Shown here in pieces: positions 1,123 to 63,597 of a stretch of 64,000 nucleotides of DNA. This DNA is from Hymenopus coronatus. Its lineage: Eukaryota > Arthropoda > Insecta > Mantodea > Hymenopodidae. Position 1 is the stretch's first letter. Each line of letters opens with the position of its first letter. Position numbers and translations under genes: made by a program. The stretch is taken from NCBI GenBank assembly GCA_030762935.1, contig CM060882.1, positions 20,527,001 through 20,591,000 of the forward strand, given 5' to 3'. The notes beneath the pieces were generated by a model. That model had not been told where the DNA came from. It saw only the letters and a program-made list of their open reading frames with translations, and ran no database searches.

Positions 1123-1954
1123 TTTTTACTTTCTCTACACGCACCATATATTTAGTGTATAGAGAAGGTATTGTATTGCATCCAACAATTTGATATTGAG
1201 ATTTCACCGGAAATACATGTTTTGAGACTCCCTGAATCCAAAAAAAAATAAAAAAAAAAATAGAAAAATGCCAGTGCGTGTTGTCTGTGGGTAGCATAGC
1301 TTAAAAACGAAAAAACCATTAAATACCAAACTTGGTATTTTAGCTTCGGTTTCTTCCAAACATGCGTCACGAATACTTTCAAGAAAATCCACCCACCCCA
1401 ACTACCCTTTTCATGGAAAACATTTCGAAAATTTTGATTTTCTCAAAAATGGCTCTAACGATTTTGATTAAAATCCTTATATATAAGATATTTACATGAA
1501 AAATAAAATGTATATCTTGAATTTTCTGGGAATAGCCTCTGAAGATATGTTTATTCTGGATGAACTTTGCGGAAATTTGCATGACTGGTAAACTGTAAGA
1601 GATAGACAAAAGGTTAGCACACAAAATATGTAGAGCTCGTTAAGACACACAATTTACGTTATATACATTTTTTTTTTCGTGGAGTTGACCGTTTCTGATA
1701 TATTCCTTGTTATTAGTTTCAGCTTTAAAATACACCGTTCTCACATGGGAATTTATCAACTCCTGTCCATATAAACAAGAGAACTTCAATCACATAGCAA
1801 CCAGCTTTTGACTATCGCTTTAGACTATGGTATACCATTTCTGCTATTTTTTTTCGCAATTAGCATGAAGTAAATACAAGAATAAGTTTTTTTAATAATA
1901 ACTTGTAGCAGATATGTAGAGAAAGTCATATGAATGGAAAACATGAGATTTTTT
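1123..1954 (-). mobile_element. H-family element, near full length
   Basis: It starts with TTTTTACTTTCTCTACACG and the terminal palindrome, and ends with the complement of TCTGATG in mutated form (ACATGAGATTTTT). The internal microsatellite is reduced to an A-rich tract near 1239-1262. It belongs to the subgroup whose internal sequence reads CCCTGAATCC rather than CCCTGTATCC. Confidence 0.8.
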
Positions 1955-2508: not shown

Positions 2509-3242
2509 TCTGATGTGTTCCATTCACATGACTTTCTCTATATCTCTGCAACAAATTATTGTTAAAAAGCTTATGCTTCTATTTATTTCATACTACTCGA
2601 GAAAAAATCAGCAGAAATAGTCATATTACTTGCTTACTTGTAAGTAGAAGCGAAATAAGGGAGTATTATTGGTTAAAGTGGTAGTCAAAAGCCGGTTGCT
2701 ATGTGACTGAAGTTCCTTTGTTTGTATGGACAGGAATTGTTAAATTCCTGTATGAGAAAAGTATGTTTTTAAAGCTGAAACCAAAAACAAGGAATATTTA
2801 AAAACGATTAACTACACGAAAAACATGTATAAAGATACATTGTGTGTTTTAAGGTGCCCTACATTTTTGTGTGTTAAGCTTTTTGTCCATCTCTCACGGT
2901 TTAGTAGTTATGCAAAATTCCGTAAAATTGATCCAGAATAAAGTCTTCAGAGACTATTCCCAGAAAATTCAAGATATACATTTTATTTGTTAGGTAAATA
3001 TCTTTAAGGTACAACATTTAATCAAAATCGTTAGAACCATTTTTGAGAAAATCAAACTTTTCGAAAATTTTCCATTTAATGGGGTGGGGGTATTTTTTTG
3101 AAAATCTTTGTGTTGCATCCTTGGACGATACTAAACTTAAATACCAAGTTTGGTATTTAACGGTCTTTTTGTTTTTGAGCTATCGTATTCACAGACACAC
3201 CGACACACACACGTCCATGCACACGGACCTTTTTCTGAAATG

Positions 3243-3277
<35 letters not shown>

Positions 3278-3389
3278 ATTCAGGGGACCCTAAAACATAT
3301 ATTTCCGGTGAAATCTCGTATCGAATTTTTGGGTAGAGTGCAATACCTTTTCTATACACTATGTACATAGTACATATAGAGGAAGTACT
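2509..3389 (+). mobile_element. H-family element, near full length
   Basis: Both termini are present: TCTGATGTGTTCC at the left, and the palindrome ending ATAGAGGAAGTA at the right. A run of about 33 T at 3244-3276 follows the ACACAC tract, at the place where other copies carry a short T-run. The copy is otherwise collinear with the family. Confidence 0.85.
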
Positions 3390-7150: not shown

Positions 7151-7509
7151 TATCAGCATTTACCTGACGACCCGGGGGACCACCGAAAAAAACAAACTCA
7201 TAGGGTAGAGTGGGCAGCTGCCGGAATGCGAATACCATGTGTTACCAACTCTACCTTATCAGTAATCTTTTATATTACGCAATCTTAAGATTAGAGTAGA
7301 CGGGAACAGGGTAACCAGAATAAATCCTTAAACTAAATACAATTAGACCTCGTCCATGCTGTAAATTATTTACCAATTATAACGTGTTTAACTAAACGAG
7401 AGCGCAGGAATACTTAAAACAAAGTATTTTACTAAAGTACTGATTTAGAAATAATACATTACAACCTTTTTCAATGGGTTAAGAAAATTAACGTAAACTC
7501 GGTTTAAAA
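7151..7509. other. unassigned stretch
   Basis: Mixed composition to about 7260, then AT-rich. Nothing recognised before the H copy begins. Confidence 0.35.
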
Positions 7510-8367
7510 AAATGATGTGTTCCATTCACATGACTTTCTCTACATCTTTGCAACAAATTAGTTTTAAAAAGCTCATGCTTATTTTTACTTCATGCTAATC
7601 AACAAAAAATTAGCAGAAATAAGTCTTATTACTTGCTTCCTTGTAAGTAGAAGGAAAATAGGGAGTAGTATAGGTTAAAGCGATAGGCAAAAGCTGGTTG
7701 CTATTTGACTGAAATTCCTTTGTTTGTATGGAAGAGTTGACTAATTCCTGTATGAGGAAAGTTAAGTTTTTCGAACCTGAAAACAAAAACTAGGAATATT
7801 TCAAAAACGATCAACTCCACGAAAAAATGTATACAACCTAGGTTGTGTGTTTTAATGTGCTCTACAGTTTTTGTGTGGTAAGTTTTTGCCTATCTCTTAC
7901 GGTTTAGCAGTTATGCAAAATTCCCTAAAATTAACTCAGAATAAAGTAGTCTAAGAGGCTATACCTAGAAAATTCAAAATATACATTTTATTTGTCAGTT
8001 ACCTTTAACGATATTTTAATCAAAATCGTTAAGAGCCGCTTTTTAGAAAATCAAAATTTTCGAAAAAAGTTCCATGTAAAGGGTAGCTTGGGGGTGGGGG
8101 GACTTTTCTCAAAATCTTTGTGTCGAATTCCTGCAAGATACTAAATTTAAATACCAAGTTTGGTATTTTACCGACTTTTCGTTTTTGAGTTATCGTGTTC
8201 ACAGATACACGGACACACACACATGGACCTTTTTCTGAAAAAACCTTTTTTGGATACAGGGGACCCTAAAACATATATTTCCAGCGAAATCTTGGTATCG
8301 AATTTTTTGGTGGAGTGCAATACCTTCTCTATACACTATGTAAATAGTACGTGTAGAGAAAGTAAAA
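7510..8367 (+). mobile_element. H-family element, reference full copy (Helentron-like)
   Basis: The left end matches TCTGATGTGTTCC with one change. ACTTTCTCTACA lies at 7533-7544, about 24 bp inside. The body ends with a short ACACAC tract near 8213, then ATACAGGGGACCC. A palindrome at 8325-8360 (TTCTCTATACACTATG... to ...GTGTAGAGAA) is followed by AGTAAAAA. The inner left motif is the inverted repeat of the right terminus, so the inverted repeats are asymmetric. With the terminal hairpin and no coding capacity for a transposase, this fits non-autonomous Helitron2/Helentron elements. No Rep/helicase is present to prove it. It could also be an unclassified MITE. Confidence 0.8.
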
Positions 8368-8624
8368 ATTGGTTTGCATTCAGTATTACAATTTCTGGTC
8401 CTTTCCTGTTAGTTAGCTATTTCCTGTAACTCCTACTTGGAACATAGGATAACGTTACGATGTTTCTGTGATCGAATTTTCATTTCTAGTTCGCAAGTTC
8501 GCCGCTGTGCACCATGGTGACGGGGGATGAACTTGTCGCCCACAGATGGCTCTGTAGGACGAAATCACGACTTGTGAACGCGAAATGACGGAATTTTGTC
8601 CAGGAACCCCCTTCTTTCAAAGTA

Positions 8625-16941: not shown

Positions 16942-17067
16942 CCACATTCTCTACACATAATATATACGTAGTGTATAGAGAAGGTATTGTAATGCACCGA
17001 GATTTCACCGGAAATACATGTTTTGGGTCCCCCTGAATCCAAAAAAAAGCATTTTTGGAGAAAGGTT

Positions 17068-17113
<46 letters not shown>

Positions 17114-17706
17114 TTTGTGCAGCATAGCTAAAAATGAAAAGACCGTTAAATACCAAACTTGGCATTTAATTTTGCTATCTTCCAAGGATACGACATAAAG
17201 ATTTTAAAGAAAATCCCCTCACCCCAAACTACGCTTTATATGGAAAATAAAAATCGAAATTTTTGATTTTCTCAAAATTGGCTCTAACGATTTTGATTAA
17301 AATCTCATATTTAACACATGCCAAATAAAATGTATATCTTGAATTTTCTGGGAATAGCCTCTAAAGACCTCTTTATTTTGGATGATGTTTATTGAATTTT
17401 CCATAAGTGGTAAACTGTAAAAGATAGACAAAAACATACTGCACAAGAAATGTACATCATAATAAAACACACAATTTATGTCATGCATTTTTTTCATGGA
17501 GTTGATCGTTTGTCAACTCCCGTCCATACAAACAAAGGAACTTCATTCATATAGCAACCAGCTTTTAACTAACACTTTAACCTATGGTACTCCCTCATTT
17601 CCCTTCTACTTACAAGGAAGCAAGTAAATAGAAGCATAAGCTTTTTAACAATAATTTGTTGCAGAGATGTAGAGAAAGTCATGTAAATGGAATACATCAG
17701 ATTTTT
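16942..17706 (-). mobile_element. H-family element, internally shortened
   Basis: Both ends are recognisable. The palindrome at the left is degraded (CATTCTCTACACATAATATATACGTAGTG) and the right ends in ACATCAGATTTTT. A (GT) run of about 22 units lies at 17069-17112, at the family's fixed microsatellite site. About 90 bp before the CAACTCC block (near 17512) is lost. Confidence 0.8.
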
Positions 17707-18835: not shown

Positions 18836-18841
18836 AAAAAA

Positions 18842-19246: not shown

Positions 19247-20103
19247 TCTGATGTTGTCCATTCACATGACTTTCTCTATATCTCTGTAAATTATTATTGT
19301 TAATAAGCTTATCTTTTATTTATTTCATGCTAATCGAGAAAAAATAGCATAAATAGTTTTATTTCTTGCTTTATTGTAAGTGGAAGCGAAATAAGAGACT
19401 ACCATAGGTTAAAGTGAAAGCCAAAAACTGGTTGCTATGTGACTGATGTTCCTTTGTTTGTATGGACAGGAGTTGACAAATTCCTGTATGAGAAAAGTAT
19501 GTTTTTCAAAGCTGAAACCAAGAAAAAGGAATATATCAAAAAGGATCAAATCCACGAAAAAAATGTGTATAACATAAATTGTGTGTTTTAACGTGCCCTA
19601 CATTTTTTGTGGGTTAAATTTTTGTCCATCTCTTACGGTTTAGTAGTTATGAAAATTCATCCAGAATAAAGTAATCTTCAGAGGCTATTCCCAGAAAATT
19701 CAAGATATACATTTTATTTGTTAGGTAAATATCTTTAATATACGAAATTTTAATCAAAATCGTTAGAGCCATTTTTGAGAAAATCAACATTTTCAGAAAA
19801 AATTTCCATTTAAAGGGTAGTTGGGGGTGGGGGGATTTTTCTCAAAATCTTCGTATCGCATCCCTGGAAGATACTAAACTTGAATAAAAAGTTTGGTATT
19901 TTACCGACTTTTCGTTTTTGAGTTATCGAGTTCACAGACACACGGAGACACGGACACACACGGACCTTTTTCTGAAAATACTTTTTTTGGATACAGGAGA
20001 CCCTAAAACATATATTTCCGGTGAAATCTCGGTATCGAATTTTTTGGTGGAGTGCAATACAATCTCTATACACTATGTACATGGTGCCTATAGAGAAAGT
20101 AAA
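19247..20103 (+). mobile_element. H-family element, array unit 3 (full)
   Basis: Complete from ATCTGATGTTGTCC to CTATAGAGAAAGTAAAAA, including the palindrome at about 20062-20097. The microsatellite is short (GGACACACACGG, near 19949). Confidence 0.85.
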
Positions 20104-20416: not shown

Positions 20417-21095
20417 AACGAAAACGTGGTTTTCCTGGCAGGCAGACTGATCAACGCTGCTCTCCTCATTACAGTGTCACGCCTCTAGCCGCGTATTGCA
20501 ACTGTCAGTGTTCATTGTTCGGAAGAGTTGCTCCCAAACAGTGCACTTTACTAAAATAGCTGGTCGCACACTATGTTGAATAGTTTCACATGAAGTAAGA
20601 GTTTCCTCGATTCGCTCCAAATGGAAGGAAATCATTTGAATGAAACCGCCTCTGGTTTTGCTTATACACCTGTCGTTTTCAATAAACGCCCGAGAGGAAG
20701 ATGGAGGCTGTCTCTGCAGTAAGACATAGTAGATCCAGTTGCGGTCGCCAAATGCTGCTGACAAACTCCTTAAATAAGTGAGCATCGAGGTGGGGATGCG
20801 CGCTAAATTTTAATGCTGGTGGGCACGAAGGGACGGTGCAAAGGTTTCCCTTATTGGATTACATGGCGATATCGAAACAAAACCTGTATCAATTTAAAGG
20901 CTACGACGTAGCAGGATTCTTTCAGCTCCTACAACACCACCTCGGCGGTCTTGGTCCTTAAGATAATGCCTCTGTCAGATGTGAAAAACACACCTGTCAG
21001 TATGCAAGATATCCAACTGTAATTTATAATAGTTACGTTTTGGAAATGTTTCAAAACTCCAGCCAGCATGGTTATTTGAACATAGACTTTTTATC
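20417..21095. other. unassigned stretch with one protein-like frame
   Basis: A minus-strand frame of 102 codons (20477-20785) has an ordinary amino-acid mix (for example NWIYYVLLQRQPPSSS) unlike the low-complexity frames elsewhere. I recognise no domain. It could be an exon or a remnant of an unidentified transposon. The rest shows nothing. Confidence 0.25.
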
Positions 21096-21831
21096 GTCTA
21101 GAGAAGGTATTGCACTCCACCCAAAAATTCGATAACGAAATTTCACCAAAAATACATGTTTTGGGTCTCCCTGAATCCAAAAAAGGAATTTCTGGAAAAA
21201 GTTCCGTGTGTACGTGCGTATTTAAGTTTGGTATCTTCCAAGGATGCGACACGAAGACTATCAAGAAAATACTCCCACTCCCAACTACGCTTTGCATGGA
21301 ACTTTTTTCAAAAATTTTGATTAAAATATCGTATACTAAAGATATTTACCTGACAAATAATATGTATATCTTGAATTTTCTGGGAATAGACTCTGAAGAC
21401 TACTTTATTCTGGATGAATTTTACGGATTTTTGCATAACTGCTAAACCCTAAGAGATGGACAAAAACTTACCATTCAGAAAATGTAGAGCACATTAAAAC
21501 ACACAATTTATGTTATATACCTTTTTTCGTGTAGTTGATCGTTTTTAAGATATTCAGCTTTGAAAAACATACTTTTCTCATACAGGTATCAGTCAACTCC
21601 TGTCCATACAAACAAAGGAACTTCAGTCACATAGCAACCAGATTTTGACTATCACTTTAACCTATGGCACTCCCTTGTTTCGCTTCTACTTACATGGAAG
21701 CAAGTAATAAGACTATTTCTGCTATTTTTTTCTCGATTAGCATGAAGTAAATAGAATCATTAGTTTTTTAAGAATAATTTGTTGAAGAGATGTAGAGAAA
21801 GTCATGTGAATGGAACACATCAGATTTTTTC
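21096..21831 (-). mobile_element. H-family element, palindromic end truncated
   Basis: It starts inside the palindrome (TCTAGAGAAGGTATTGC) and ends in full at ACACATCAGATTTTTT. The microsatellite is reduced to GTGTGTACGTGCG at about 21207, joined to a shortened inner part. Confidence 0.8.
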
Positions 21832-23947: not shown

Positions 23948-24785
23948 TCTGATGTGTTCCATTCACATGACTTTCTCGACAGCAAATTATTGTTAAAAAA
24001 CTAATGCATCTATTAACTTCATGCTAATCGAGAAAAAAATAGCAGAAATAGTCTTAAGTAGAAGCGAAATAAGGGAGTACCATAGGCTAAAGTGATAGTC
24101 AAAAGCTGGTTGCTATGTGACTGAAGTTCCTTTGTTTGTATAGACAGGAGTTGATATATAATTGTATGAGAAAAGTATAAGTTTCTTAAAGCTGAATCCA
24201 AAAATAAGGAATATCTAAAACACGATCAACGACACGAAAAGAATGTATGTAATATAAATTGTATGTTTTAACGTGGTCTACATTTTTTGTGTGGTAAGCT
24301 TTTGTTCATCTCTTACGGTTTAGCAGTTAGCAAAATTCCTTAAAATTCATCCAGAATAAAGTGATCTTCAGAGGCTATTCCCAAAAAATTCAAGTTATAC
24401 ATTTTATTTGTTAGGTAAATATCTTTAATATACGATATTTTAATCGAAATCGTTAAGAGTCCTTTTAGAGAAAATCAAAATTTTCGAAAAAAGTTCCATT
24501 AAAGGGTAGTTTTGGGTGGGGGGATTTTTCTCAAAATCTTCGTGTAGCATCCCTGGAAAATACTAAATGGAAATACTAAGTTCGGTATTTTACCGAATTT
24601 TCGTTTTTGAGTTATCGTGTTCACAGACACACGAACACACACTGACCTTTTTCTGATTTTTTTTTTTTTTTGGGAAACGGGGACCCTAAAACATATATTT
24701 TCGGTGAAATCTCGGTACCGAATTTATGGTTGGAGTGCAATACCTTCTCTATACACTATGTACATAGTACGTGTAGAGAAAGTGA
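23948..24785 (+). mobile_element. H-family element, full length
   Basis: TCTGATGTGTTCC to GTGTAGAGAAAGTGAAA with an intact palindrome at about 24746-24779. A 14-T run lies after the ACACAC tract near 24656. It is followed head-to-tail by another H left end. Confidence 0.85.
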
Positions 24786-27994: not shown

Positions 27995-28812
27995 TATTAC
28001 TTTCTCTACACGTACTATATACATAGTGTATAGAGAAGGAGTTGCACTCCACCCAAAAATACGATACCGAGATTTCAATGGAAATATATGTTTTAGGGTC
28101 CCCTGTATCCAAAAAGAGCTTGTTCAGAAAAAGGTCCATGTGTGTATGTGTGTGTATGTGTCCGTGTGTCTGTGAACACGATAACTCAAAAACGAAAAGT
28201 CGGTAAAATACCAAACTTGATATTTGAATTTAGTATCTTCCAGAGATGCGACAAGAAGATTTTGAGAAAAATCTCCACACCCCATACTACCCTTTGCATA
28301 AAACACTTTTCGAAAATTTTGATTTTCTCAAAAATGAACATAATGATTATAAATCGTATATTAAACATGTTTACCTGATAAATAAAATGTATATTTTGAA
28401 TTTTCTGGGAATAGCCTCAGAAGACTACTTTATTCTGCATGAACTTCACAGAATTTTACATAAATGCTAAACCGTAAGAGATGGACAAAAACTTACCACA
28501 CAAAACATGTAGGGTACGTTAAAACACACAATTTATGTTATATACATTTTTTCGTGGAGTTGATCGTTTTTGAGATACTCCTTGTTTTTGCTTTCAGCTT
28601 TAAAAAACTTACCTTTCTCACAGAGGAATTTGTCAACTCGTGTCCATACAAACAAAGGAACTTCAATCACATTTCGCTTCTACTTACAAGGAAGCAATAT
28701 TTTTTCTAATTTTTTCCTCCATTAGCATGAAGTAAATAGAAACATAAGCTTTAACAATAGTTTATTGCAGAGATGTAGAGAAAGTCATGTGAATGGAACA
28801 CATCAGATTTTT
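27995..28812 (-). mobile_element. H-family element, full length
   Basis: An intact palindrome (CTCTACACGTACTATATACATAGTGTATAGAG) at the left and ACACATCAGATTTTTT at the right. The microsatellite is GTGTGTATGTGTGTGTATG. A 78-codon plus frame ends near MYILNFLGIASEDYF (see findings). Confidence 0.85.
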
Positions 28813-29631: not shown

Positions 29632-30499
29632 TTACTTTCTCTACACGTACTATGTACATAGTGTATAGAGAAGGTATTGTATTGCACCCAAAATTTCGAT
29701 ACCGAGATTTCATCGAAAATACAAGTTTTGGGTCCCCCTGAATCCAAAAAAATCATGTTTACAAAACCGTCCGTGTGTGCGTGCGTGTGTGTCTGTGTAC
29801 AGCATAGCTCAAAAACGAAAATACCGTTAAATACCAAACTTGGAATTTAAGTTTGGTATCTTCCAAGGACGCGACACGAAGATTTTCAAGAAAATCCCCC
29901 ACCCCCAACCACCCTGGACATGGAGGTTTTTTCGAAAATTTTTATTTTCTCAATAACGCTCTAACGATTTTGATTAAAATGTCGTATATTAAAGATATTT
30001 ATTTGAAAAATAAAGTATATATCTTGAGTTTTCTGGGTAAAGCCTCTGAAGACTAATTTATTATGGATGAATTTTACGGAATTTTGCATAACTGCTAAAC
30101 CGTAAGAGATGGACAAAAACTTACCAGACTAAAAATGTAGAGCATGCTAAAACACACAATTTATGTAATATACATTTTTTTCGTGGAGTTGCTCGTGTTT
30201 AAGATATTCCTTGTTTTGGTTTCAGCTTTGAAAAACTAGTACTTTTCTCATACAGGAATTTCTCAACTCCTGTCCATACAAACAAACGAACTTCATTCAC
30301 ATAGCAACCAGCTTTTGACTAGCACTTTAACCTTTCGTACTCCTTTATTTCGCTTCTACTTACAAGGAAGCAAGTAATAAGATCATTTCTGCTAGCTTTT
30401 TCTCGATTAGCATGCAGTAAAGAGAAGCATAAGCTTTTTAACAGTAATTTGTTACAGAGATGTAGAGAAAGTCATGTGATTGGAACACATCAGATTTGT
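29632..30499 (-). mobile_element. H-family element, full length
   Basis: It starts ATTACTTTCTCTACACGTAC with a clean palindrome and ends GGAACACATCAGATTTG. It belongs to the CCCTGAATCC subgroup, with GTGTGTGCGTGCGTGTGTG at the microsatellite site. Confidence 0.85.
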
Positions 30500-30717: not shown

Positions 30718-31563
30718 AATCTGATGTGTTCCATTCACATGACTTTCTCCATATCTCTGCAACAAATTATTGTTGAAAAGCTTATACTTCTATTTACTTC
30801 ATGCTAATCGAGAAAAAAAAATGTCAGAAATAGTCTTATTACTTGCTTCCTTTTAAGTAGAAGCGAAATAAGGGAGTACCATAGATTAAAGTTATAGTCA
30901 AAGACTGGTTGCTATGTGACGGAAGTTCCTTTTTAATGGACAGGAGAATATATGAGAAAATATACGTTTTTGAAAGGTGAAATCAAAAACAAAGAATAAC
31001 TAAAAAACGATCAACTCCACGAAAAAATTGTGTGTTTTAACGTGCCCTTCATTTTCTGTGTAGCAAGCTTTTGTCCAGCTCTTACCGTTTAGCAGCTAAG
31101 CAAAATTCAGCAAAATTGATCCAGAATAAACAGGTCTTCAGAGGATATTTCTAAAAAATTCAAGATATACATTTTATTTGGTATGTAAATGTCAGAAATA
31201 TATGGAATTTTAATCAAAATCGTTAGAGCCATTTTTGAGAAAATCAAAATTTTCGAAAAAAGTTCCATGTAAAGGGTTGTTTGGGGCGGGGGGATTTTCT
31301 TGAAAATCTTCGTGTCACATCCTTGGAAGATATAAAACTTAAATATCAAGTTTGGTTTTTAACGGTCTTTTCGTTTTTGAGCTATGCTGCCCACAGATAG
31401 ACAGACACACACACGGACATGCTTCTAAAAAGGTTTTTCTTTTTTGGATTCAGGAGATATCAAAACATGTATTTCCGGTGAAATCTCGGTATCGAATTTT
31501 TGGGTGCATTACAATACCTTTTCTATAAACTATGTACATAGCACGTAGAGAGAAAGTAAAAAG
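30718..31563 (+). mobile_element. H-family element, full length
   Basis: TCTGATGTGTTCC to TAGAGAGAAAGTAAAAAG with the palindrome near 31521-31556. Its antisense frame (31349-31107) is open for 80 codons. Confidence 0.85.
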
Positions 31564-33542: not shown

Positions 33543-34358
33543 TATCTGAAGCGCTCCATTCACATGACTTTCTCTATGGTCCTGCAACAGATTATTGTTA
33601 AAAAGATTATGCCTCTATTTACTTTATACTAATAAATTAGCAGAAATAGTCTTATTACTTTCTTCCTTGTAAGTAGAAGTGAAATAAGGGAGTACCTTAG
33701 GCTAACGTAACAGTCAAAAGCTGGTTACTATGTGACTGAAGTTGACAAATTCCTACATGAGCAAAGTAAGTTTTTCAAAGCTGAAACCAAAAATAATGAA
33801 TATCTCAAAAACGTTCATTTGCTCGGAAAAAATGTATATAACTTAAATTGTGTGTTTTAACGTGCTCTACATTTCTTGTGTAGTAAGTTTTTATCTAAGT
33901 CTTACGTTTCAGCAGTTATGCAAAATTCCGTAAAATTCGTCCAGAATAAAGTAGTCTTCAGAGGCTATTCCCAGAAAATTCAAGATATACATTTTGTTTG
34001 TCAGGTAAATATCTTTAATATATAGTATTTTAATAAAAATCGTTAGAGCCATTTTTGCGAAAATCAAAATTTTCGAAAAAAGTTTCATGTAAAGGGTAGT
34101 TGGGTGTGGCGGGATTTTTCTTAAAATCTTCGTGTCGCATTCCTGGAAGATACTAAACTTAAATACCAAGTTTGGTATTTTATCACCTTTTCGTTTTTAA
34201 GTTATCGTGTTCTTTGTGAAAATGCTTTTTTTTTTTTTTTTGGATACAAGGGGCCCTAAAACATATACTTCCGGTGAAATCTCGGTATCGAATTTTTGGG
34301 TGGAGTATAATACCTTTTCTATACACTATGTACGTAGTACGTGTAGAGAAAGTAAAAA
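33543..34358 (+). mobile_element. H-family element, CA tract lost
   Basis: ATCTGAAGCGCTCCATTCAC to GTGTAGAGAAAGTAAAAA. The CA tract is deleted (CGTGTTCTTTGTGAAAATGC), leaving a run of 17 T. The antisense frame 34169-33909 is open for 86 codons. Confidence 0.83.
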
Positions 34359-36892: not shown

Positions 36893-37692
36893 TCTAATGT
36901 AGTCCATTCGCATGACTTTCTCTACATTTCTGCCCATGCATCTATTTACTTCATGCTAATCGGAAAAAAAATTAGCAGGAATAGCCTTATTACTTGCTCC
37001 CTTGTAAGTAAAAGCGAAATAAGGGAGTACCATAGGTTAAAGTGTTAGTCAAAAGCTGCTTCCTTTGTTTGCATGGACAGAAGTTGGCAAATTCCCGTAT
37101 GACAAAAGTATTAAGCTTTATGTAGCTGAAACCAATAACAAGGAACATCTGAATAACGATCAACTCCACGAAAAAAATGTATATAACATAAATTGCGTGT
37201 TTTAACGAGTTCTATATTTTTTAATCAAAAAGTTTTTGTCTATCGCTTACGGTTTACCAGTTACGCAAAATTGAACAAATTTCAATAAGAATAAAGGGGT
37301 CTTTAGAGGTTATTCCCAAAAAATTCAAGATATACGTATTTTTTACCATATAAATATCTAATGTACGGTATTTTAATGAAAATCGTAAAGTTATTTTTGA
37401 AAACATCAACATTTTCGAATTTTTCCATTTAAAGAGTAGTTTGAGGTGGGGAATTTTTCTCAAAATCTTCGTGTCACATCCCTGGAAGATACTAAACTTA
37501 AATACCAAGTCTGGCAGTTCGCCGATTTTTCGTTTTTGAATTATCGTGTTCAAAGACACACACACGGACCCTTTTAGATACAGGACACCCTAAAGCGTAT
37601 TTTTCCGGTGAAATCTCCGTATCGAATTTTTGGATGGAATGCAATACCTTCTCAATACACTCTGTACATAGTACGTGTAGAGAAAGTAAAAA
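36893..37692 (+). mobile_element. H-family element, near full length
   Basis: TCTAATGTAGTCCATTCG to GTGTAGAGAAAGTAAAAA. The antisense frame (37565-37254) is open for 103 codons. The microsatellite is shrunk to GACACACACACGG. Confidence 0.83.
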
Positions 37693-38920: not shown

Positions 38921-39753
38921 GTTACTTTCTCTACACGTGCTCTGGTCATAGTGTACAGAGAAGGCATTGCATTCTAGCAAAAATCGATTTAGAGATTTCA
39001 CCAGAATAATATGCTTGGGGTCCTCTGAATCCGAAAAAAAAAAAAAAATGTAGAACAAGATCCTTCTGTGTGTCTGAAAAGTATTGCTCTCTCAAAAACG
39101 AAAATACCTACTTAGTATTAAAGTTAAATATCATCCAAGCATACATTACAAAGAGTTTCAAGAAACTCCCCCCGACAAACCACCCTTAACATGGAAATAT
39201 GTTTCAAATTGTTATTTTTCTCAAAAATGGATAAACACTTTGCTTAAAATAGCGTATATCAAAGATATTTACATAAAAATAAAATGTATATTATGAATTT
39301 TCTGGGAGTATACACTAAACACCTCTTTATTCTGGATACGTTTTGTAGAATTTTGCATAACGGTTAAACCGTAAGAGATAGACAAAAGCTTACTACACAA
39401 AAATGTAGATATCGTTAGAAAAACAATTTATATCATATACGTTTTTTATATAGAGTTAAACCGTTTCCAAAATATTCTTCGTTATTGGTTTCAATTTTAA
39501 ATTACTTAAACATTTCTCAAATGGGAAGTGGCGTTTCGTTTCATCTCTCTTGTTTTACTGCATGCAAAGAGAACCAGACTTCAATCGTTTCACATAGGAA
39601 CAGCTTTTAAGAGTTTTTACAGCTAGTAATATGACAATTTCTGCTACTATTAACTTGATTAGCATGCCGTAGATAAAAATATAGTTTTGTAAGGAAAGTT
39701 GTTTGTGTAACAGCTAGTGAAAGCCATATGAATGGAACACATCAGATTTTTTA
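38921..39753 (-). mobile_element. H-family element, divergent full copy
   Basis: GTTACTTTCTCTACACGTGC to ACACATCAGATTTTTT. The microsatellite is lost (GTGTGTCTG only), a run of A replaces the usual site, and the last 250 bp are rearranged. Likely an older copy. Confidence 0.78.
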
Positions 39754-40033: not shown

Positions 40034-40775
40034 TCTAATGTGTTACACTCATATGACTTTCTCTAGCTGTTCTACAAACTTCATAATAAGATTCTTCTTC
40101 TTTCTGCACCTTGCTAATCGTGGTACTCATTAGCACAATGTTCTTATTATTTAGTTCCGTATAAGTAGGAAGAAAATAAGGGAATACACTAGGCTAAACC
40201 AGTAGTCAAATGTTTTAAAAGCTGTCGTTATGCGATGGTCATTACAAATCGCTTCTTTTCTTGGCCAGGAGTAGAACAAAAGAAAAACGGACACGCCCGT
40301 CTGAGAAAAGTATACGATTTTCACAACTGAAACTAATAACAATGAATACCTGAAAACGGTAAGCTCCACGAAAAAAATGTATATGACGTAAATTGTGTAT
40401 TTTAACAAGGCATACATTTGTTGTATAGTAAGTTTTTGTCTATCTCTTACGGTTTACTAGTTATGCCAAATTAAGCAAAATGCATACAGAATAAACAGGT
40501 CTTGAGAAGCTATTCCCAGAAAATTCAAGATACATATTTTATTTGTTAGGTAAATATCTTTAATATGTGATATTTTAATCAAACTCGTTAACAGCCATTT
40601 TTAAGAAAATCAAAATTTTCGAAGAAATTTCCATGTAAAGGGTAGTTTGGGGTGGGGGGATTTTTATCAAAATCTTGTCGCATGCCTGGAAGATACTTAA
40701 CTTAAATACCAAGTTTGGTATTTTAACTACTTTTCGTTTTTGAGTTACCGTGTTCACAGACACACGGACACACAG

Positions 40776-40806
<31 letters not shown>

Positions 40807-40951
40807 GACCTTTTTCTCAAAATGCTTTTTTTGGATACAGGGGGTCCTAAAACATGTATTTCCGGTGAAATCTCAGTATCGAATTTTTGGGTGGAATACA
40901 ATACTTCTCTATCCCTATGTACATTGTACATATGGGGCTAGAGTAGGTAAA
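40034..40951 (+). mobile_element. H-family element, subgroup 2, array unit 1
   Basis: Left end TCTAATGTGTTACACTCATATG, which marks subgroup 2 (GTTACACTC instead of GTTCCATTC). The CA tract at about 40771-40802 is long. The right end has a decayed palindrome (CTATCCCTATGTACATTGTACATATGGGGCTAGAG). Confidence 0.82.
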
Positions 40952-40952: not shown

Positions 40953-41486
40953 GTACATAAATATATGTATATGACATAAATTGCGTGTTTTAATGAGATC
41001 TACATTTTTTGTGTAGTAAGTATTTTCTATCTCTAATGGTTTACCAGTTATGCAAATACAAAAGCCATCCAGAATGAAGAGGTCTTCGTAGGCTATTCCC
41101 AGAAAATTCAAGTGGTACATTTCGTTTGTCATTAAAATATCTTAAAAATATGACACTTTAACCGAAATTGTTAAAAAAATGTTCGATTTTAGGTTTTTCG
41201 TGATTTTCTTGAAAATATTCGTGTTGCATCTCTGGAAGATATCTGAACTTAAATATCAAGTTTGTTATTTAACAGAATTTTCGTGTTTGAGCTATGCTAC
41301 CCATAGACAGACACACACACACACACACAAATGGACTTGTTTCTAAAAATGCTATTGTGTTTGTAATCAGGGGGTCTCAAAACATGCATTTCCGGTGAAA
41401 TCTAGAAATCGAATTTTTGGGTGGAATACAACGCCTTCTTCATCCATTATGTGTATTATACATACGGGCTATAGAAAGTAAAAATG
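40953..41486 (+). mobile_element. H-family 3' part, array unit 2 (5' truncated)
   Basis: It joins unit 1 directly and enters at ATGTATATGACATAAATTG. CA tract at about 41312-41328. It ends in the same decayed palindrome type as unit 1 (CATACGGGCTATAGAAAGTAAAAA). Confidence 0.8.
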
Positions 41487-42297
41487 TTATGTTTTCCATT
41501 CACATGATTTTCTCTACATCTCTGCAAAAAATTATGCTAATCGAGAAAAACTTAGCGGAAATATCTTATTACTTGCTTCTTTGTAAGTAGAAGCGAAATA
41601 AGGGAGTATCATAGCTTAAAGTGATAGTCAAAAGCTGGTTGCTATGTGACTGAAATTCCATTGTATGGGCAGGAGTCCTGTATGAGAAATGTATAATGTT
41701 TTTAAAGCTGAAACCAACAAGGAATATCACAAAAACGATCAACACCACGAAAAAATGTATACAACATAAATTGTGTGTTTTAACGTGCCTTACATTTTTG
41801 GTGTGGTAAGTGATTGTCCATCTCTTACGGTTTAGTAGTTATGTAAAATTTCGTAAAATTCACCCAGAATGTAGTAGAGACTATTCCCAGAAAATTGAAT
41901 ATATACATTTTATTTGTCATGTAAATATATCTAATATATTTAAACAAAAACGTTAGCCATTTTTGAGAAAATCAAACATTTTGAAAAAAAGTTCCAGTTA
42001 AAGGGTAGTTTGGGGTGGGGGAATTTTTCTCAAAATCTTCGTGTCACATCTGTGGAAGATAGTAAACTTAAATGCCAGGTTTGGTAGTTTATCGACTTTT
42101 CGTTCTTGAGTTATCGTGTTTACAGGCACACAGACACATGGACACACACATGGACCTTTTCGTGAAAATGCTTTTTTTGGATACAGGGGACCCTAAGAAA
42201 TATATATTTCCATTGAAATCTCGGTATGGAATTTTTGGGTGAAGTGCAATGCCTTCTCTATACACTATGTACACAGTATGCGAAGAGAAAGTAAAAA
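41487..42297 (+). mobile_element. H-family element, array unit 3 (full)
   Basis: TTATGTTTTCCATTCACATG follows the previous A-run with no spacer. It ends GCGAAGAGAAAGTAAAAA after an intact palindrome. Subgroup 1. Confidence 0.83.
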
Positions 42298-43118
42298 CCT
42301 GATTTGTTTCATTCACATGGCTCTCTTTATATCTCTGACACAAATTATGGTTAAAAAACTCATGCTTCTATTTACTTCATACATCAGCAGAAATAGTCCC
42401 ATTACTTGCTGCCTTGTAAGTAGAAGGGAGTACTATTGGTTAAAGTGATAGTCAAAAGCTGGTTGCTATGTTACTGAAGTTCCTTTATTTGTATGGACAC
42501 GAGTTGACTAATTCCTGTATGAGAAAAGTATAAGTTTTTCAAAGCTAAACTTAAAAACAGCGAATATCTTAAATAAGAATAACTCCACAAAACATTTATA
42601 TTAGATAAATTGTGTGTTTTAATGTGCTCTACATATTCTATGTGGTAAGTATTTGTACATCTCTTACGGTTTAACAATTATGCAAAATTCCGTAAAATTC
42701 ATCCAGAATAAAGTTGTCTTCAGAGGCTGTTCCCAGAAAATTCAATATGCATTTTATTTGCCTTGTAAATATCTGTAACATATGACATTTTAAACAAAAT
42801 CGCCATAGCCGTTTTTAAGAAAAACTAAATTTTCGAAAAATGTTCCATTTAAAGGGTAATTGGGGGTGTGGGGACTTTCTTGAATATCTTCGTGTCTCAT
42901 CCTTGGAAGATACCAAACTTAAATGCCAAATTTGGTATTTAACGGTTTTGTCGTTTTTGAGCTATGCTGCCCCTCCTACACACGAACATGTTCCTAAAAA
43001 TGTATTTTTAATTCAGGGGGTGTCAAAATATGTATTCCTTGTGAAATCTCGAATTTTTGGGTGCATTATCATACTTTGTCTATACACTATGTATATAGTG
43101 TGTGTAGAGAAAGTAAAG
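42298..43118 (+). mobile_element. H-family element, array unit 4 (full)
   Basis: CCTGATTTGTTTCATTCAC starts immediately after unit 3. The right end GTGTAGAGAAAGTAAAGG follows a palindrome. The microsatellite is reduced to CTACACACGAAC. Confidence 0.83.
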
Positions 43119-44850: not shown

Positions 44851-45647
44851 TTTTTACTTTCACTATACGCACTATGTACATAGTATATAGAGAAGGTATT
44901 GCATTCCACCCAAAAATTCGATACCGAGCTTTTACCGGAAATATATGTTTTAGGGTCCCCAATATGCAAAAAAAGCATTTTCGGAAAAAGGTCCGTGTGC
45001 CTGTGAACACGATAACTCAAAAACGAATCGTAGGTAAAATACCAATCTTGGTATTTAAGTTTAGTATCTTCCAGGGATGCGACACAAGATTTTGAGAAAA
45101 ATTCCCCCATCCCCAATTACCCTTTACATGGAACTTTTTTTTCGAAAGTTTTGATTTTCTGAAAAATTGATCAAACGATTTTAATTAAAATTTCGTATAT
45201 TAAAGATATTTACCTGAAAAATAAAATGTATATCTTGAATTTTCTGAGAATAGCCTCTGAAGACTACTTTATTCTGGGTAAATTTTACGGAATTTTGCAT
45301 AACTGCTAAACCGTAAAGAGATGGACAAAAACTTACCACACAACAAATGAAGAGCACTTTAAAACGCACAATTTATGTTATATACATTTTTTTCGTGGAG
45401 TTGATTGTTTTTTTCAGCTATAAAAAGCTGAACTCGTATCCATACAAACAAAGGAACTTCAGTCGCAGAGCAACCAGCTTTTGATTATCACTTTAATCTA
45501 TGGTACCCCCTTATTTCGCTTCTACTAACAAGGAAGCAAGTAATAAGACTATTTCTGTTAATTTTTGCTCAATTAGATGAAGTAAATAGAATAATTTGTT
45601 GCAGTGATATAGAGAAATTCATGTGAATGAAACACATAAGATTTTTA
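44851..45647 (-). mobile_element. H-family element, near full length
   Basis: TTTTTACTTTCACTATACGC to AAACACATAAGATTTTTA. The microsatellite is nearly absent (CCGTGTGCCTGTG). About 60 bp between GTTTTTTTCAGC and AACTCG are missing. Confidence 0.82.
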
Positions 45648-48400: not shown

Positions 48401-48401
48401 C

Positions 48402-48584: not shown

Positions 48585-49375
48585 TCTGATGTGTTCCATT
48601 CACATGACTTTCTCTACATCTCTGTAATAAATTATTATTAAAAATCTTATGGTTCCATTTACTTCATGCTAATCGAGAAAAAATTGGCAGAAATAGTCTT
48701 ATTACTTGCTTCCTTGTAAGTAGAAGCGAAATAAGGGAGTACCATAAGTTAAAGTGATAGTAAAAAGCTGGTTGCGATGTGACTGAAGTTCCTTTGTTTG
48801 TATGGACCGGAGTTGACAAATTCCTATACAAGAAAAGTATAAGCTTTTCAAAGCTGAAACCAAAAACAAGGAATATCTAAAAAACGATCAACTGCACGAA
48901 AAAAATGTATATAACATAAATGGTGTTTTAATGTGCTCTACATTTTTTATAGTAACCTTTTGTCCATCTCTTACGGTTTAATAGTTACGCAAAATTTCGT
49001 AAAATTGATCCAGAATAAAGTAGTATTAAGATGCTATTCCCAGAAAATTCAAAATATCCGTTTTATCTGTCAGGTAAATATCTTAAGTATACGATATTTT
49101 AATCAAAATCGTTAGAGCCATTTTTAAGAAAATAGAAAAAAGGTTCCATGTAAAGGGTATTTTGGAGTGGAGGGATTTTTCTCAAAATCTTCGTGTCGCA
49201 TCCCTGGAGGATACTAATTATAAATACACACACGGAAGATTTTTTTGAAAATGCTTTTTTTTGGATACAGAGGACCCTAAAACATATATTTCCGGTGAAA
49301 TCTCGATATCGAATTTTTGAGTGGCGTGCAATACCTTCTCTATACACTATTTACATGGTACGTATAGAGAAAAAA
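48585..49375 (+). mobile_element. H-family element, full length
   Basis: TCTGATGTGTTCC to ACGTATAGAGAAAAAAATAG. Like the fragment before it, it lacks the GTTTTTGAGTTATCG block (ATACACACACGGAAG follows TAATTATAA), so the two share a deletion. Confidence 0.83.
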
Positions 49376-51445: not shown

Positions 51446-52311
51446 TTTACTTTCTCTATACGCACTATGTACATAGTGTATAGAGAATGTATTGCACTCC
51501 ACAAAAAATACGATACCGAGATTTCATCGGAAATATATGTTTTAGGGTCCTCTGTATCCAAAAAAAGTATTTTCAGAAAAAGGTCCGTGTGTGTGTCCGT
51601 GTGTCTTTGAACACGATAACTCAAAAACGAAAAATCGGTAAAATACCAAACTTGGTATTTAGGTTTAGTATCTTCCGGGGATGTGACACGAAGATTTTGA
51701 GAAAAATCCCCTCACTCCAAACTACTCTTTACGTGGAACTTTTTTCGAAAATTTTGATTTTTTAAAAAATGGCTCTAACGATTTTGATAAAAATAATCGT
51801 ATATTAAAGATATTTACCTGACAAAATGTATATTTTGAATTTTTGGGAATACCCTCGGAAGACTACTTTATTCTGAGTGAATTTTACGGAATTTTGCATA
51901 AGAGCTAACCTGTAAGAGAGAGACAACGACTTATCACACAAAAAATGTAGAGAACATTAAAACACACACTTTATGTTGTATACATTTTTTTCGTGGAGTT
52001 GATTGTTTTTGAGATATTCCTTGTTTTTGGTTTAAGTTATAAAAACCTATAATTTTCTCATACAGGACTTTGTGAACTCGTATCCATACAAACAAAGGAA
52101 CTTCAGTCACATAGCAACCAGCTTTTGACTATTACTTTAACCTATAGTACTCCCTTATTTCGCTTCTACTTTACAAGTAATTAAAGAAATAAGGCTATTT
52201 CTGCCAATTTTTTCTCGATTAGCAGGAAGTAAATAAAACCATAAGCTTTTTAAAAATAATTTATTGCAAAGATATAGAGAAAGTCATGTGAATAGAAAAC
52301 ATAAGATTTTC
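51446..52311 (-). mobile_element. H-family element, full length
   Basis: TTTACTTTCTCTATACGCAC with a perfect palindrome, to AAACATAAGATTTTC. The antisense frame (51487-51765) is open for 92 codons through the GTGTGTG tract. Confidence 0.84.
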
Positions 52312-53999: not shown

Positions 54000-54671
54000 A
54001 CATCTTTTGAGTTGCATTCACATGAATTTCTCTACATCTCTGCTTAAAACATATTATTAAAAGGCTTATGCTTCTATTTACTTCATGCTAATCGAGAAAA
54101 AATGAGCAAAACTAGTCTAATTACTTCCCTCCATACAAGTAGAAGCGAAATAAGGGAGTACCATACGTTAAAGTGAAAGCCAAAAGCTGGTTGCTATGTG
54201 ACTGATGTTCGTTTGTTTGTATGGACAGGTGTCGACACATTCCTGTATAGAAAAGTATAAGTTTTTAAAGCTAAAACCAATAACAAGGAACATATCCAGA
54301 ACGATCAACTCACGAAAAAAATGTATATAACATAAATTGTGTGTTTTATCGTCGTCTATATTTTTTGTATAGTAAGTTTTTGTCTATCTCTTACGGTTTA
54401 TCAGTTATACAGAATTCAATAAAGAGGCCTTCAGAGACTATGCCCAGGAAATTTATTTTATTTAGCATGTAATATCTACACATAGGAGATTTTAATCAAA
54501 ATTGTTAAAGCAATTCTTGAGAAAACTATAATTTTCGAAATTTTTTCCATATAAAGGGTAGTTTGTGGTGAGGGGATCTTCTTAAAAACCTGCGTGTCAC
54601 ATCTAAACTAAACTTAAATACCAAGTTTGGTATTTAATGGTTTTTTCGTATTTGAGCTTTGCTGTCCACAG

Positions 54672-54706
<35 letters not shown>

Positions 54707-54858
54707 CACACACATGGACCTTTTTCCAAAAATCCTTTTTTTGGATTCAGGGGGACCCAAAACATTTATATCCGTTGAAACCCAGTATCGAATTTTTTGA
54801 TGGAATGCAATGCCTTCTCTATACACTGTGTATAGAGTACGTGTAGAGAAAGTAAAAT
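54000..54858 (+). mobile_element. H-family element, near full length
   Basis: CATCTTTTGAGTTGCATTCAC (mutated left end) to GTGTAGAGAAAGTAAAA. CA tract at 54671-54700. CCCTGAATCC-type subgroup (GGATTCAGGGGGACCC). Confidence 0.82.
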
Positions 54859-54923: not shown

Positions 54924-55063
54924 TTTTACTTTCTCTATACGCACGATGTACATAGTGTATAGAGAAGGTATTGCACTCCACCAAAACATTTGATACCGAA
55001 ATTTCACCGGAAATATTTGTTTTAGGGTCCCCTGTATCTAAAAGAAGTATTTTCAGAAAAAGA

Positions 55064-55105
<42 letters not shown>

Positions 55106-55484
55106 CGTGTGTCTGTGAACACGATACATCAAAAACGAAAAGTCGGTAAAATACCAAACTTGGTATTTAAGTTTAATATCTTCCAGGGATGCGACACGAA
55201 TATTTTGAGAAAAATCCCCCCACCCCCAACTACCATTTACATGGAACTTTTTTCGAAAATTTTGATTTTCTCAAAAATGCTCTAACGATTTTGATTAAAA
55301 TATCGTATATTTAAGTTATTTACCTGACAAATAAAATGTATATTTTGAATTTTCTGGGAATAGCCTCTGTAGACTGCTTTATTCTGGGTCAATTTTACGG
55401 AATTTTGCATAACTGCTAAACCGTAAGAGATGGATAAAAACTTACCACACAACAAATTTAGAGCATTTTAAAATACACAATTTT

Positions 55485-55542
<58 letters not shown>

Positions 55543-55837
55543 TACGTGGAGTTGATTGTTTTTTTAGATATTCCTTGTTTTTGGTTTCAGCTATAAAAAC
55601 TTATAATTTTCTCATAAAGGACTTTGTGAACTCGTGTGCATACAAACAAAGGAACTTCAGTCACATAGCAACCAGATTTTGACTACCACTTTAACCTATG
55701 GTAGTCCCTTATTTCGCTCCTACTTACAAGGAAGCAAGTAATAAGACTATATCTGCTAAATTTTTTTTCGATCGGCATGAAGGAAATTTTTTGCAGAGAT
55801 GTAGAGAAAGTCGTGTGAATGGAACACATCAGAGTTT
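54924..55837 (-). mobile_element. H-family element, full length with (AT)n
   Basis: TTTTACTTTCTCTATACGC to ACACATCAGAGTTTTG. The GT tract (55068-55100) grades into GCGCGC. A 50 bp pure AT run at 55490-55540 interrupts the ATATACATTTTTTTCG block. The frame 54971-55285 is open for 104 codons. Confidence 0.84.
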
Positions 55838-56335: not shown

Positions 56336-56451
56336 TTTTTACTTTCTCTATACGTGCTATGTACATAGTGTATAGAGAAGGTATTGCACTCCACCAAAAA
56401 ATTCGATACTGAGATTTCACCGGAAATATTTATTTTAGGTTCCCCTGTATC

Positions 56452-56497
<46 letters not shown>

Positions 56498-57206
56498 GAA
56501 AATGGTCCTTGTGTGTGTCCGTGAACACGAAATCTCAAAATAGCAAACTTGGTATTTAAGTTTAGCATCTTCCAGGGATGCGACACGAAGATTTTGAGAA
56601 AAATCTCCACACCCCCAACTACCCTTTACATGGAACATTTTTCGAAAATTTTGATTTTCTCAAAAATGGCTCTACCGATTTTGATTACAATTTCGTATAT
56701 TAAAGGTATTTATCTGACAAATAAAATGTATATCTTGAACTTTCTGGGAATAGCCTCTGAAGAGTACTTTATTCTGGATGAATTTTCCTGAATTTTGAAT
56801 AACTGCTAAACCGTAAGAGATGGACAAAAGCTTACTGCACAGAAAATGTAGAGCACATTAAAACACACAATTTAAGTTATATACATTTTTTTCGTGGAGT
56901 TCGTCGTTTTTGAGACATACCTTATTTTTGGTTTCTGCAATGAAAAACGTATACTTTTCTCATACAGGAACTTGTCAACTCCTATCCATTTAACAAAGGA
57001 ATTTCGATATATAGCAATCAGCTTTTGAGTATAACTTTAACCTATGGTAGTCCATAATTGGCTTTTACTTACAAGGAAGCAAGTAATAAGACTATTTCTA
57101 CTAATTTTTTTCTGATTAGCATAAAGCAAATAGAAGTATAAGCCTTTTAAGCATAATTTGTTGCAGAGATATAGAGAAAGTCATGTGAATGGTACACATC
57201 AGATTT
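56336..57206 (-). mobile_element. H-family element, array unit 1 (full)
   Basis: TTTTTACTTTCTCTATACGTG to GTACACATCAGATTTTT. An A-run plus (AT)n lies at 56453-56494 before a short GTGTGTG. The next unit shares the T-run at the junction. Confidence 0.85.
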
Positions 57207-58060
57207 TTACTTTCTCTATACGTGCTATGTACACAGCGTATAGAGAAGGTATTGCATTCTACCAAAAAATTCGATACCGAGATTTCACCGGAAATATATA
57301 TTTTAGGGTCCCCTGTATCCAAAAAAAAAAAGTATTTTCAGAAAAAGGTCCATGTGCCCGTGTGTCAGTGTGCCTGTGAGCACGATAACTCAAAAACGAA
57401 AAGTCGGTAACATACCAAACTTGGTATTTAAGTTTAGTATCTTCCTTTAGTATCTCACGAAGATTTTGAGAAAAATCCCCCCACTCCAAACTACCCTTTA
57501 CATTTAACTTTTTTCGAAAATTTTGATTTTTTAAAAAACTCTAACGAATTTGATTAAAGTATAGTATATTAAAGATATATACCTGGCAAATAAAATGTAT
57601 ATTTTGAATTTTCTGGGAATAGACTCTGAAGACTACTTTATTCTGGGTCAATTTTACGAAATTTTGCATAACTGCTAAACCGTAAGACATGGACAAAAAC
57701 TTACCACACAACAAATGTAGAGCACCTTAAAACACACAATTTATGTTGTGTACATTTTTTTCGTGGAGTTGATATTTTTTTAGATATTCATTGCTTTTGG
57801 TTTCAGCTATAAAAACTTATAATTTTCTCATACAGGACTTTGTCAACTCCTGTCCATACAAACAAAGCAACTTCAGTCACATAGCAACCAGCTTTTGACT
57901 ATCATTTTAACCTATGGTACCCCCTAATTTCGCTTCTACTAATAAGGAAGCAAGTAATAAGGCTATTACTGCTAATTTATGCTCTATTAGATGATGTAAA
58001 TAGAATAATTTGTTGCAGTGATATAGAGAAAGTCATGTGAATGGAACACATCAGATTTTT
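57207..58060 (-). mobile_element. H-family element, array unit 2 (full)
   Basis: It begins ACTTTCTCTATACGTGC directly after unit 1 and ends ACACATCAGATTTTTT. The GT tract is broken into GTGCCCGTGTGTCAGTGTG. Confidence 0.85.
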
Positions 58061-58375: not shown

Positions 58376-59040
58376 TTTTTACTTTCTTTACATGTAGTAT
58401 GCACATAGTGTATAGAGAAAGTTCATCCAAAAATTTGATACATAGATTTCACCGGAAATGCACATTTCAGGATCACCTGTATCCAAAAAGAATATTTTTT
58501 TAAAAAAAAGGTGCGTGGGCGTGTGTGTCCGTGAACATAACTCCAAAACGTAAACTCCGGAAAATACCAAACTTGGCGCTTACGTTTAAGATCTTCCAGG
58601 GATGCGACACGAAGATGTTGAGAAAAGTTCCACCACCCCAAACTTCTCTTTACAAGACAAACATTTCGAACATATTGTATTTCTCAAAAACTGCTTACGA
58701 TTTTGATTAAGCACACAATTTATAGCATACATTTTTTGGTGGAACTGACCATTTCTGAGATGTTTTACTTATTTGTATCAGATTTAAGGTATTTTTTCAC
58801 ACAAAAAGTTGTAAACTCCTGATACTGCGTGGAAATGGATTTCAACCACATGGCAACCAGCTTTTAAATGCTTTGATTAACAGAGCCTCTTGTATTCCCT
58901 TATTTCTCTTTTACTTACAAGTAATAAGACAATTTGCTCTAATTTTTATCCCAATTATCATAAAGTAGATAGAAGAATATGCTTTTTAATAATTATTTGT
59001 AACAGTAGTGTAGAGAAAGTCGTGTAGATGGAGTCCATTT
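58376..59040 (-). mobile_element. H-family element, array unit 3, internally deleted
   Basis: TTTTTACTTTCTTTACATG to GTCGTGTAGATGGAGTCC. About 170 bp in the middle are missing (GATTTTGATTAAG joins to CACACAATTTATAGC). More diverged than its neighbours. Confidence 0.76.
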
Positions 59041-59800
59041 TTAGTTTTTCTACACGTACTATGTGCATAGTGTATAGAGGAGGTATTGTAATGCACCCAA
59101 TTCGATACAGATATTTCACCAGAAATACATGTTTTGTATCTCCCTGAATAAAAAAAAACATTTTTAGATAAATGTCCCTCAGTCTGTCTGTCTTTGTGCA
59201 TGTGTGTGTATATGTCAGTGGGCATCATAGCTCAAAAACGAAAAGACCATTAAACACCAAACTTGATATTTAAGTTTGGTATATTCCAAGGATGCGACAC
59301 GAAGATTTTCAAGAAAATCCCTCACCCCCAACTACCCATCAATGGAACAATAATCGAAATTTTGATTTTTTAAAAATGGCTAACGATTTTGACTAAAATA
59401 TCCTATATTAAAGATATTTACCTGACAAATAAAATGTATATCTTGAATTTTCTGGGAATAGCCCCTGAAGACTACTTTATTCTGGATGTATTTTACGGAA
59501 TTGTGCATAACTGCTAAACCGTAAGAGATGGACAAAAACTTACCACACACAAAATGTAGATTTCGTTAAAACACACAATTCATATGATATACTTTTTTTT
59601 TTTCGTGGAGTTGATAGTCCTTGTTATTTTCAGCCTTTAAGAAACTTCTACTTCTCTCATACGAGAATTTGTCAACTCCTGTCCATACAAACAAAGTTAC
59701 TTAAATTCACATGGCAACCAGCTTGTAAAACATATGACTATCGCTTTAATCTATGGTACTCCCTTATGTCCCTTCTACTAAGAAGTAAGCAAGCAGTAAG
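59041..59800 (-). mobile_element. H-family element, array unit 4, TCTGATG end lost
   Basis: TTTTTAGTTTTTCTACACG to AAGCAAGCAGTAAG, then the next unit's ACTTTCTCTATACG. The last ~120 bp are missing. The junction lies in TTACTTTCT, which both partners contain. Confidence 0.8.

Positions 59801-63560: not shown

Positions 63561-63597
<37 letters not shown>

Follow-up and report, generated by a model that had tools for sequence, protein, structure and literature searches.

About half of the 64,000-nt stretch of DNA analysed here (the window) consists of one repeat family, H. With a probability of roughly 0.93 we regard H as a non-coding Helentron derivative of the HINE/DINE-1 type, whose ends recur on elements of this genome that encode Rep, helicase and endonuclease, and which was likely copied by the proteins of these elements via rolling-circle replication. 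H is a new family of a kind that is already known; its mechanism is ordinary, its local density unusual. A dense repeat linked to a Rep-helicase-endonuclease family within one genome provides material for testing how Helentrons choose their ends and targets. An earlier note on this DNA had suggested a non-autonomous Helitron2/Helentron, and this reading is upheld by the layout of the ends, by insertion into T-runs without duplication of any non-T base and by a coding family, D, with H-type ends.

All copy counts rest on the 27 H copies of the window whose ends could be joined by our pairing rule. Blastn with these copies covered 32,810 of 64,000 bases (51.3%), in agreement with the earlier estimate of about 33 of 64 kb, and 0 bases in one shuffled window searched in the same way. 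The focal stretch gave 68 blastn pieces in the window, including itself, and the motif ACTTTCTCTACA was found 54 times at up to one mismatch (0.45 expected from shuffles). Outside the window, H covers 23,436 of 200,000 bases (11.7%; 0 to 8,258 per 20 kb) in stretches around ten canonical-Helitron Rep matches, which are a non-random and biased sample. The 27 copies diverge from their majority consensus by a median of 0.096 K2P (range 0.069–0.306); thus, the family is not very young. A literature search, in which sequences cannot be queried, did not turn up family H, and we make no claim that it is unpublished.

The focal copy has a core of 853 bp (7511..8363), delimited by its paired ends, and lies on the minus strand when read from the Helentron 5' end to the 3' end. 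Directly 5' of the core stands a TTTTT block (8364..8368, minus strand). The core begins with an asymmetric terminal inverted repeat, ACTTTCTCTACA (8352..8363, minus strand), recognised by motif and by repeat match, which pairs with downstream bases in a predicted terminal hairpin with stems of 9 and 7 bp (8323..8362, minus strand, DNA fold). Near the other end the inverse repeat, reading TGTAGAGAAAGT on the minus strand, is located at 7533..7544, 22 nt from the 3' end, and is followed by a weak putative stem-loop, ATGTG-7 nt-CACAT (7515..7531, minus strand), 4 nt from the 3' end, and by a T-run directly behind the core (7506..7510, minus strand). In summary form, the family reads 5' T5-ACTTTCTCTACACGTACTATGTACATAGTGTATAGAGAAGG ... 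TGTAGAGAAAGT-C-ATGTG-AATGGAA-CACAT-CAGA-T run 3'. The 12-nt 5' repeat is present at the start of the core in 25 of 27 copies with at most four mismatches, the two copies without a recognisable one being 21058..21824 (plus strand) and 61500..62391 (minus strand, with an AGC-type 3' repeat). For the 3' repeat the distance to the 3' end is 22 nt in all 27, a constancy which is partly given by construction: within a span of 24 nt the script takes whichever 12-mer fits best, and alignment places the 3' end itself.

Further copies with paired ends are located on the plus strand at 1128..1948, 16944..17701, 27999..28807, 29634..30494, 38924..39746, 44856..45641, 51449..52306, 54928..55833, 58381..59042 (3' end decayed) and 59803..60600, and on the minus strand at 2509..3386, 23948..24783, 33545..34353, 36893..37687, 40034..40948 (AGC-type inverted repeats), 54003..54853 and 62835..63745 (AGC-type inverted repeats, 3' end decayed). 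In addition, two tandem copies of 101 bp of the H 3' terminal segment are found at 18833–19040.

This arrangement equals the published one of Helitron2 and Helentrons. According to PMC3627910, PMC4067079 and PMC5148889, the 5' repeat of such elements lies 0–4 nt from the 5' end, in a hairpin formed with downstream bases; the 3' repeat is separated from the 3' end by 20–30 nt (up to 60) and precedes a hairpin, and the element is bounded by T strings of variable length at a TT target. H fits this layout when it is read from the palindrome end, and therefore what the earlier note had called the TCTGATG end corresponds to the Helentron 3' end. This end usually reads TCTGATG in the family; in the focal copy it reads AATGATG. 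The note's statement that ACTTTCTCTACA sits about 24 bp inside this end holds for its subterminal position, the spacing being 22 when counted from the end at 7511, and the exact inverse at the other terminus was indeed found at 8352–8363, within an imperfect palindrome of about 40 bp. The terminal hairpin proposed there exists at the 5' end (about 40 nt), while the candidate 3' hairpin is weak.

Several tests bear on these structures. Folded as DNA, the 5' hairpin of the focal copy has a z of -3.66, and 0 of 200 shuffles were as stable. The four 5' ends that were folded gave -3.66 (ACA variant of the repeat), -5.71 (ATA), -4.92 and -1.05 (both AGC); the last one is not stable. Among 23 aligned 5' ends, 21 of them distinct, 91.7% of 336 cells of the hairpin are paired, versus 30–67% in slid controls, and no covariation beyond that of shuffles was detected in the same alignment. 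In the 5-bp 3' stem 89.6% of the cells are paired, two of them being compensatory, a count equalled or exceeded in 28 of 500 shuffles, and its energy offers no advantage over shuffles in any of three folded ends (focal copy, z 0.15).

The match between the repeats of the two ends is a stronger sign than the hairpin tests. Although the ends are about 800 bp apart, both carry the same variant in 18 of 27 copies (ACA/ACA in nine, ATA/ATA in seven, AGC/AGC in two; other combinations in nine). The repeat mismatches within copies sum to 46, against 58.2 when the ends are re-dealt; a sum as small as the observed one arose in a fraction of 0.00045 of 20,000 shuffles. Shared descent within subfamilies can add to this match, and therefore the match alone is no proof of function. 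The Helitron2 model, as laid out in PMC3627910, has the two repeats pair with each other, so that the 5' hairpin opens and the end point of replication is fixed. Applied to H, the 5' hairpin with its repeat would mark the start of replication and the subterminal repeat that precedes the 3' stem its end. A Rep-helicase-endonuclease of the D type would recognise the H ends and mobilise H in trans, and the displaced strand would insert at the 5' edge of a T-run in the host DNA.

The likeness to known systems extends to details. HINE/DINE-1 elements (PMC4067079) share with H an inverted repeat that occurs close to the 5' terminus and again subterminally at the 3' end, a 3' stem-loop that in H is weak and putative, a microsatellite, lack of coding capacity, a TT or T-rich target left without modification, variable Ts and high copy number. 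H differs from them in its sequence, in having its 5' repeat within a hairpin of about 40 nt and in a 5' T block of sharply five. With Helitron2 (PMC3627910, and the fungal FoHeli, PMC5148889) H shares asymmetric terminal inverted repeats, a 5' repeat that forms a 5' hairpin and a 3' repeat about 20–30 nt inside, upstream of a hairpin. In contrast to Helitron2, the putative H 3' hairpin is weak and family D possesses a C-terminal endonuclease, the mark of a Helentron, rather than plain Rep-helicase.

H copies do not appear to code for protein. The longest stop-free stretch of the consensus, a single one, amounts to 121 aa. There are 39 frames of at least 100 aa in the window, of which 20 were scanned against Pfam, ten overlapping H and ten mostly outside it; the former gave no match, the latter two sub-threshold ones. 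No stop-to-stop frame of at least 100 aa overlaps the focal copy (7511..8363), and a short (CA)n stretch lies within it at approximately 8200..8225. The exact 32-nt H 3' end had no match among viral contigs. Because it is short, abundant and non-coding and an A/T run borders one of its ends, H might be taken for a tRNA-derived SINE or another retroposon whose A/T run is the tail. We consider the chance of this practically negligible: T-runs stand at both ends of H, no Rfam family overlaps a paired-end copy at the gathering threshold, and neither paired inverted repeats nor ends shared with Rep elements are expected of a retroposon. Two tRNA-like Rfam matches, at 270–341 and 18551–18622, lie outside the paired-end copies and are possibly heads of SINEs.

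A T adjoins the core on the 5' side in 23 of 27 copies and on the 3' side in 24 of 27. The earlier note had named consistent target duplications of 2–10 bp as evidence against its reading; none that includes a non-T base was seen in the 27 copies. The T-runs shared by the two flanks of a copy have a length of 2.37, versus 2.53 for swapped flanks, and the identity of own flanks was never clearly higher than that of swapped ones for k = 2–12 (smallest fraction 0.164).

Three empty sites could be compared with their filled state. Two belong to minus-strand copies that each sit inside the T-run of a different H copy, 19247..20100 (in the CATTTTTTTCGTG T-run) and 30720..31557, the third to an H copy in family D (L090 6689–7562, compared with L089). 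One nested copy has 13 Ts when filled (5 + 8) versus 7 as the commonest empty run, in a loose pattern with 5–8 Ts in 20 of 25 sites; the other has 11 (5 + 6) versus 5–8 in 12 of 13 sites. The site in D has 12 filled versus 7 empty. These T-rich sites answer the suggestion that insertion without target duplication be checked on empty sites: each gained the core plus about 4–6 Ts and no other base, a gain which by itself does not separate a five-T duplication within a T-run from Ts belonging to the element. Many flank alignments consisted of a flank matching itself and its neighbour and were for this reason not counted as empty sites; the copy 40034–40948, with 12 extra bases, was left out as ambiguous.

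More can be learned from the T frequencies on both sides, for which 54 5' ends and 39 3' ends were collected from 284 kb (the window, ten 20-kb stretches and the loci L089 and L090). On the 5' side they are 0.96, 0.89, 0.74, 0.85 and 0.69 at positions -1 to -5 and fall to background (0.31) at -6; exactly five Ts stand there in 24 of 54 ends, fewer in 24 and more in six. On the 3' side they are 0.92, 0.79, 1.00, 0.92 and 0.97 at +1 to +5, followed by 0.72, 0.54 and 0.51. As a block of five which drops at -6 faces a 3' T-run of variable length, the Ts are asymmetric. Whether the terminal Ts of Helentrons belong to one end or to both is left open in PMC4067079, and H, with a 5' block that is sharply five Ts long and a variable 3' T-run, bears on this question.

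If H were a MITE mobilised by a DDE transposase through cut-and-paste, the same features would be accounted for differently, the repeats being its TIRs and the Ts its target duplication. H does have inverted repeats, the five Ts on both sides of several copies resemble a 5-bp duplication, and the 4–6 Ts gained at the empty sites would suit one. However, one H repeat is terminal and the other 22 nt inside, and non-T bases are not duplicated. Where one of the first two bases of the 3' flank (+1 or +2) is not T, that base is absent from the 5' block in seven of seven copies, including 58381 and 62835, whose decayed 3' ends make the place uncertain. Furthermore, the coding relatives with H ends that a Rep-profile search found are Rep-helicase elements. 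We therefore hold a MITE to be very unlikely.

For coding relatives, the host genome (G000, 3.127 Gb) was searched with the Helitron_like_N profile, which gave 112 matches there and none in any of 14 control genomes. Merged by eye, these correspond to about 86 places, and 70 of these places were read, ten with 20 kb of sequence and 60 as the match only. The ten strongest form two families, A (four) and B (six), located at C16:120.9M, C3:27.3M, C3:68.7M, C5:4.65M, C18:147.3M, C19:144.9M, C21:196.7M, C21:248.7M, C2:150.4M and C2:150.9M. These elements of about 5 kb with CTAG|T 3' ends are roughly 82–92% alike within a family in most aligned pieces. The right ends read GTCAGCTAG|T or a close variant in eight of eight printed, and judged by such sequences A and B are canonical Helitrons and not partners of H. 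As the strongest Rep matches they had been tried first as partners and were excluded by their CTAG|T ends.

A descent of H from the genome's own canonical Helitrons (Helitron1) is extremely improbable. Such Helitrons do exist here, making up both families of the ten strongest Rep matches, and the TCTGATG end read inwards starts with TC. Yet the right ends of A and B are unlike those of H and refute a descent from these two families; H has no CTRR end, and in the published orientation it targets T-runs, as opposed to the 5'-TC, CTRR-3' and A|T criteria. Moreover, the H repeat stands at both ends, and by the published description Helitron1 is without such a repeat. Among the 60 further Rep matches, blastn gave no similarity to A or B for 17. 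Of these, 15 resemble one another and are grouped as family D, another is closest to a family C and the last matches nothing.

Family D supplies the long relative with both ends, Rep and helicase that the earlier note had proposed to look for, and in addition an endonuclease domain; the frames read are broken. In L090, matches over the Pfam cut-off were obtained for DUF6570 (2.9e-13), Helitron_like_N (2.5e-9) and PIF1 (2.3e-23). Exo_endo_phos_2 was found over the cut-off (1.4e-6) in a read-through of the D stretch after the helicase; a comparison of this endonuclease piece with the PDB gave no match (best E 0.23), and pieces of L089 had only sub-threshold, unrelated Pfam matches. The predicted succession of Rep, PIF1 helicase and endonuclease is the Helentron order, and D resembles Helentrons in these four domains together with H-type ends. 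It departs from them in that both copies whose frames were read, L089 and L090, are broken, the other copies having been seen in short pieces only, and in that several D copies have H copies head-to-tail before them.

The 3' ends of D were read in 20 out of 41 matches, and 16 of the 20, including L090, have an H-type 3' end; it is absent in L089, L100 and L108 and partial in L095. A T-run of 4–9 follows directly in 11 of 18 tabulated ends. For the opposite side, 14 leaders were read out of 42 matches (about 40 places), seven of them extended upstream, L089 by L091. The H 5' hairpin end is fused to D in four of the 14 (L114, L116, L118 and L120), and the mutual homology of L114, L116 and L118 ends at the T block. 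The leaders of L089 and L115 retain the repeat and have the hairpin deleted (two of 14), in L111, L117 and L119 H copies lie between the 5' end and D (three of 14), and the H-like leader of L090 is interrupted at a T-run by an H copy in reverse orientation; L110, L112, L113 and L121 (four of 14) allowed no call either way. One D copy, G000:C17:12468168-12477226 on the minus strand, combines the 5' end, a Rep match with five stops and the 3' end. In L089, L115 and L120 the homology does not stop at the 5' end but runs on upstream into an H copy, and for this reason the limits of the C17 copy are structural only. The H piece before D aligns across L115, L120 and L089, a pattern that joint movement of H and D beyond the H 3' end would produce.

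The H-like part of the D leader comprises about 370–530 bp with about 70–79% identity. At the 3' end, two D copies agree with H in 91% of the last 34 nt and in 58–60% of the last 60. The D 3' repeat GTAGAGAAAGT is the inverse of H ACTTTCTCTAC, in accordance with the rule of at least 11 bp of identical subterminal repeat given in PMC4067079. By such published rules, D and H would be assigned to the same family (11-bp repeat) and to different subfamilies (58–60%). This distance is too great for D to have served as the direct donor; in the same paper, Culex HINE families are more than 95% like their partner, so that the coding relative of H is far less similar than those described there. With the D frames that were read broken and about 70–79% identity at the 5' side, D is therefore a relative and no proven mobiliser of H. 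The mover of H may be a relative of the D type, or one closer to H than D.

H copies also adjoin each other. Head-to-tail neighbours with TTTTT between them are 41485..42292 and 42298..43114 on the minus strand and 56341..57203 and 57209..58055 on the plus strand, and the 3' end of the minus-strand copy 48585..49374 is separated by eight Ts from the 5' end of another H piece, 48429–48576. Three 3'-to-5' junctions within 15 bp were counted, with about 0.14 expected for uniform placement, and no 5'-5' or 3'-3' junctions. All three are in the window and none in the other 220 kb of the same scan; D leaders outside that scan show head-to-tail H neighbours as well. Tandem Helitrons are known, according to PMC4067079. 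Identity within the two pairs of neighbours that the 27 copies include is 84.8% and 78.7%, ranks 72 and 222 of 351 pairs. Each member has a closer relative elsewhere, for which reason an origin from concatemers was rejected; as the neighbours are not sisters, independent insertion fits better. Insertion beside or into the T-runs of earlier copies explains the clustering of H. A more far-reaching version is tentative and in our view rather doubtful: the family might seed itself, each H landing at the 5' edge of a T-run, adding five Ts and so leaving landing pads at its ends and inside. Copies and Rep-bearing relatives could then pile up head-to-tail, and H might in this way have filled half the window and perhaps a tenth of the 3.1-Gb genome; the five-T register would show the source of the terminal Ts of Helentrons.

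Some other features of the window were noted. Frames that overlap at 10548–11334, of which one matches RNase H below the threshold, are possibly a broken non-LTR retrotransposon. A frame of 208 aa at 47855–48478, which runs into an H piece, has a sub-threshold HTH_28 match and is possibly a transposase fragment. At 34676–35569, in a stretch of strong GC skew, a unit of 157 bp is repeated in about 5.5 tandem copies.
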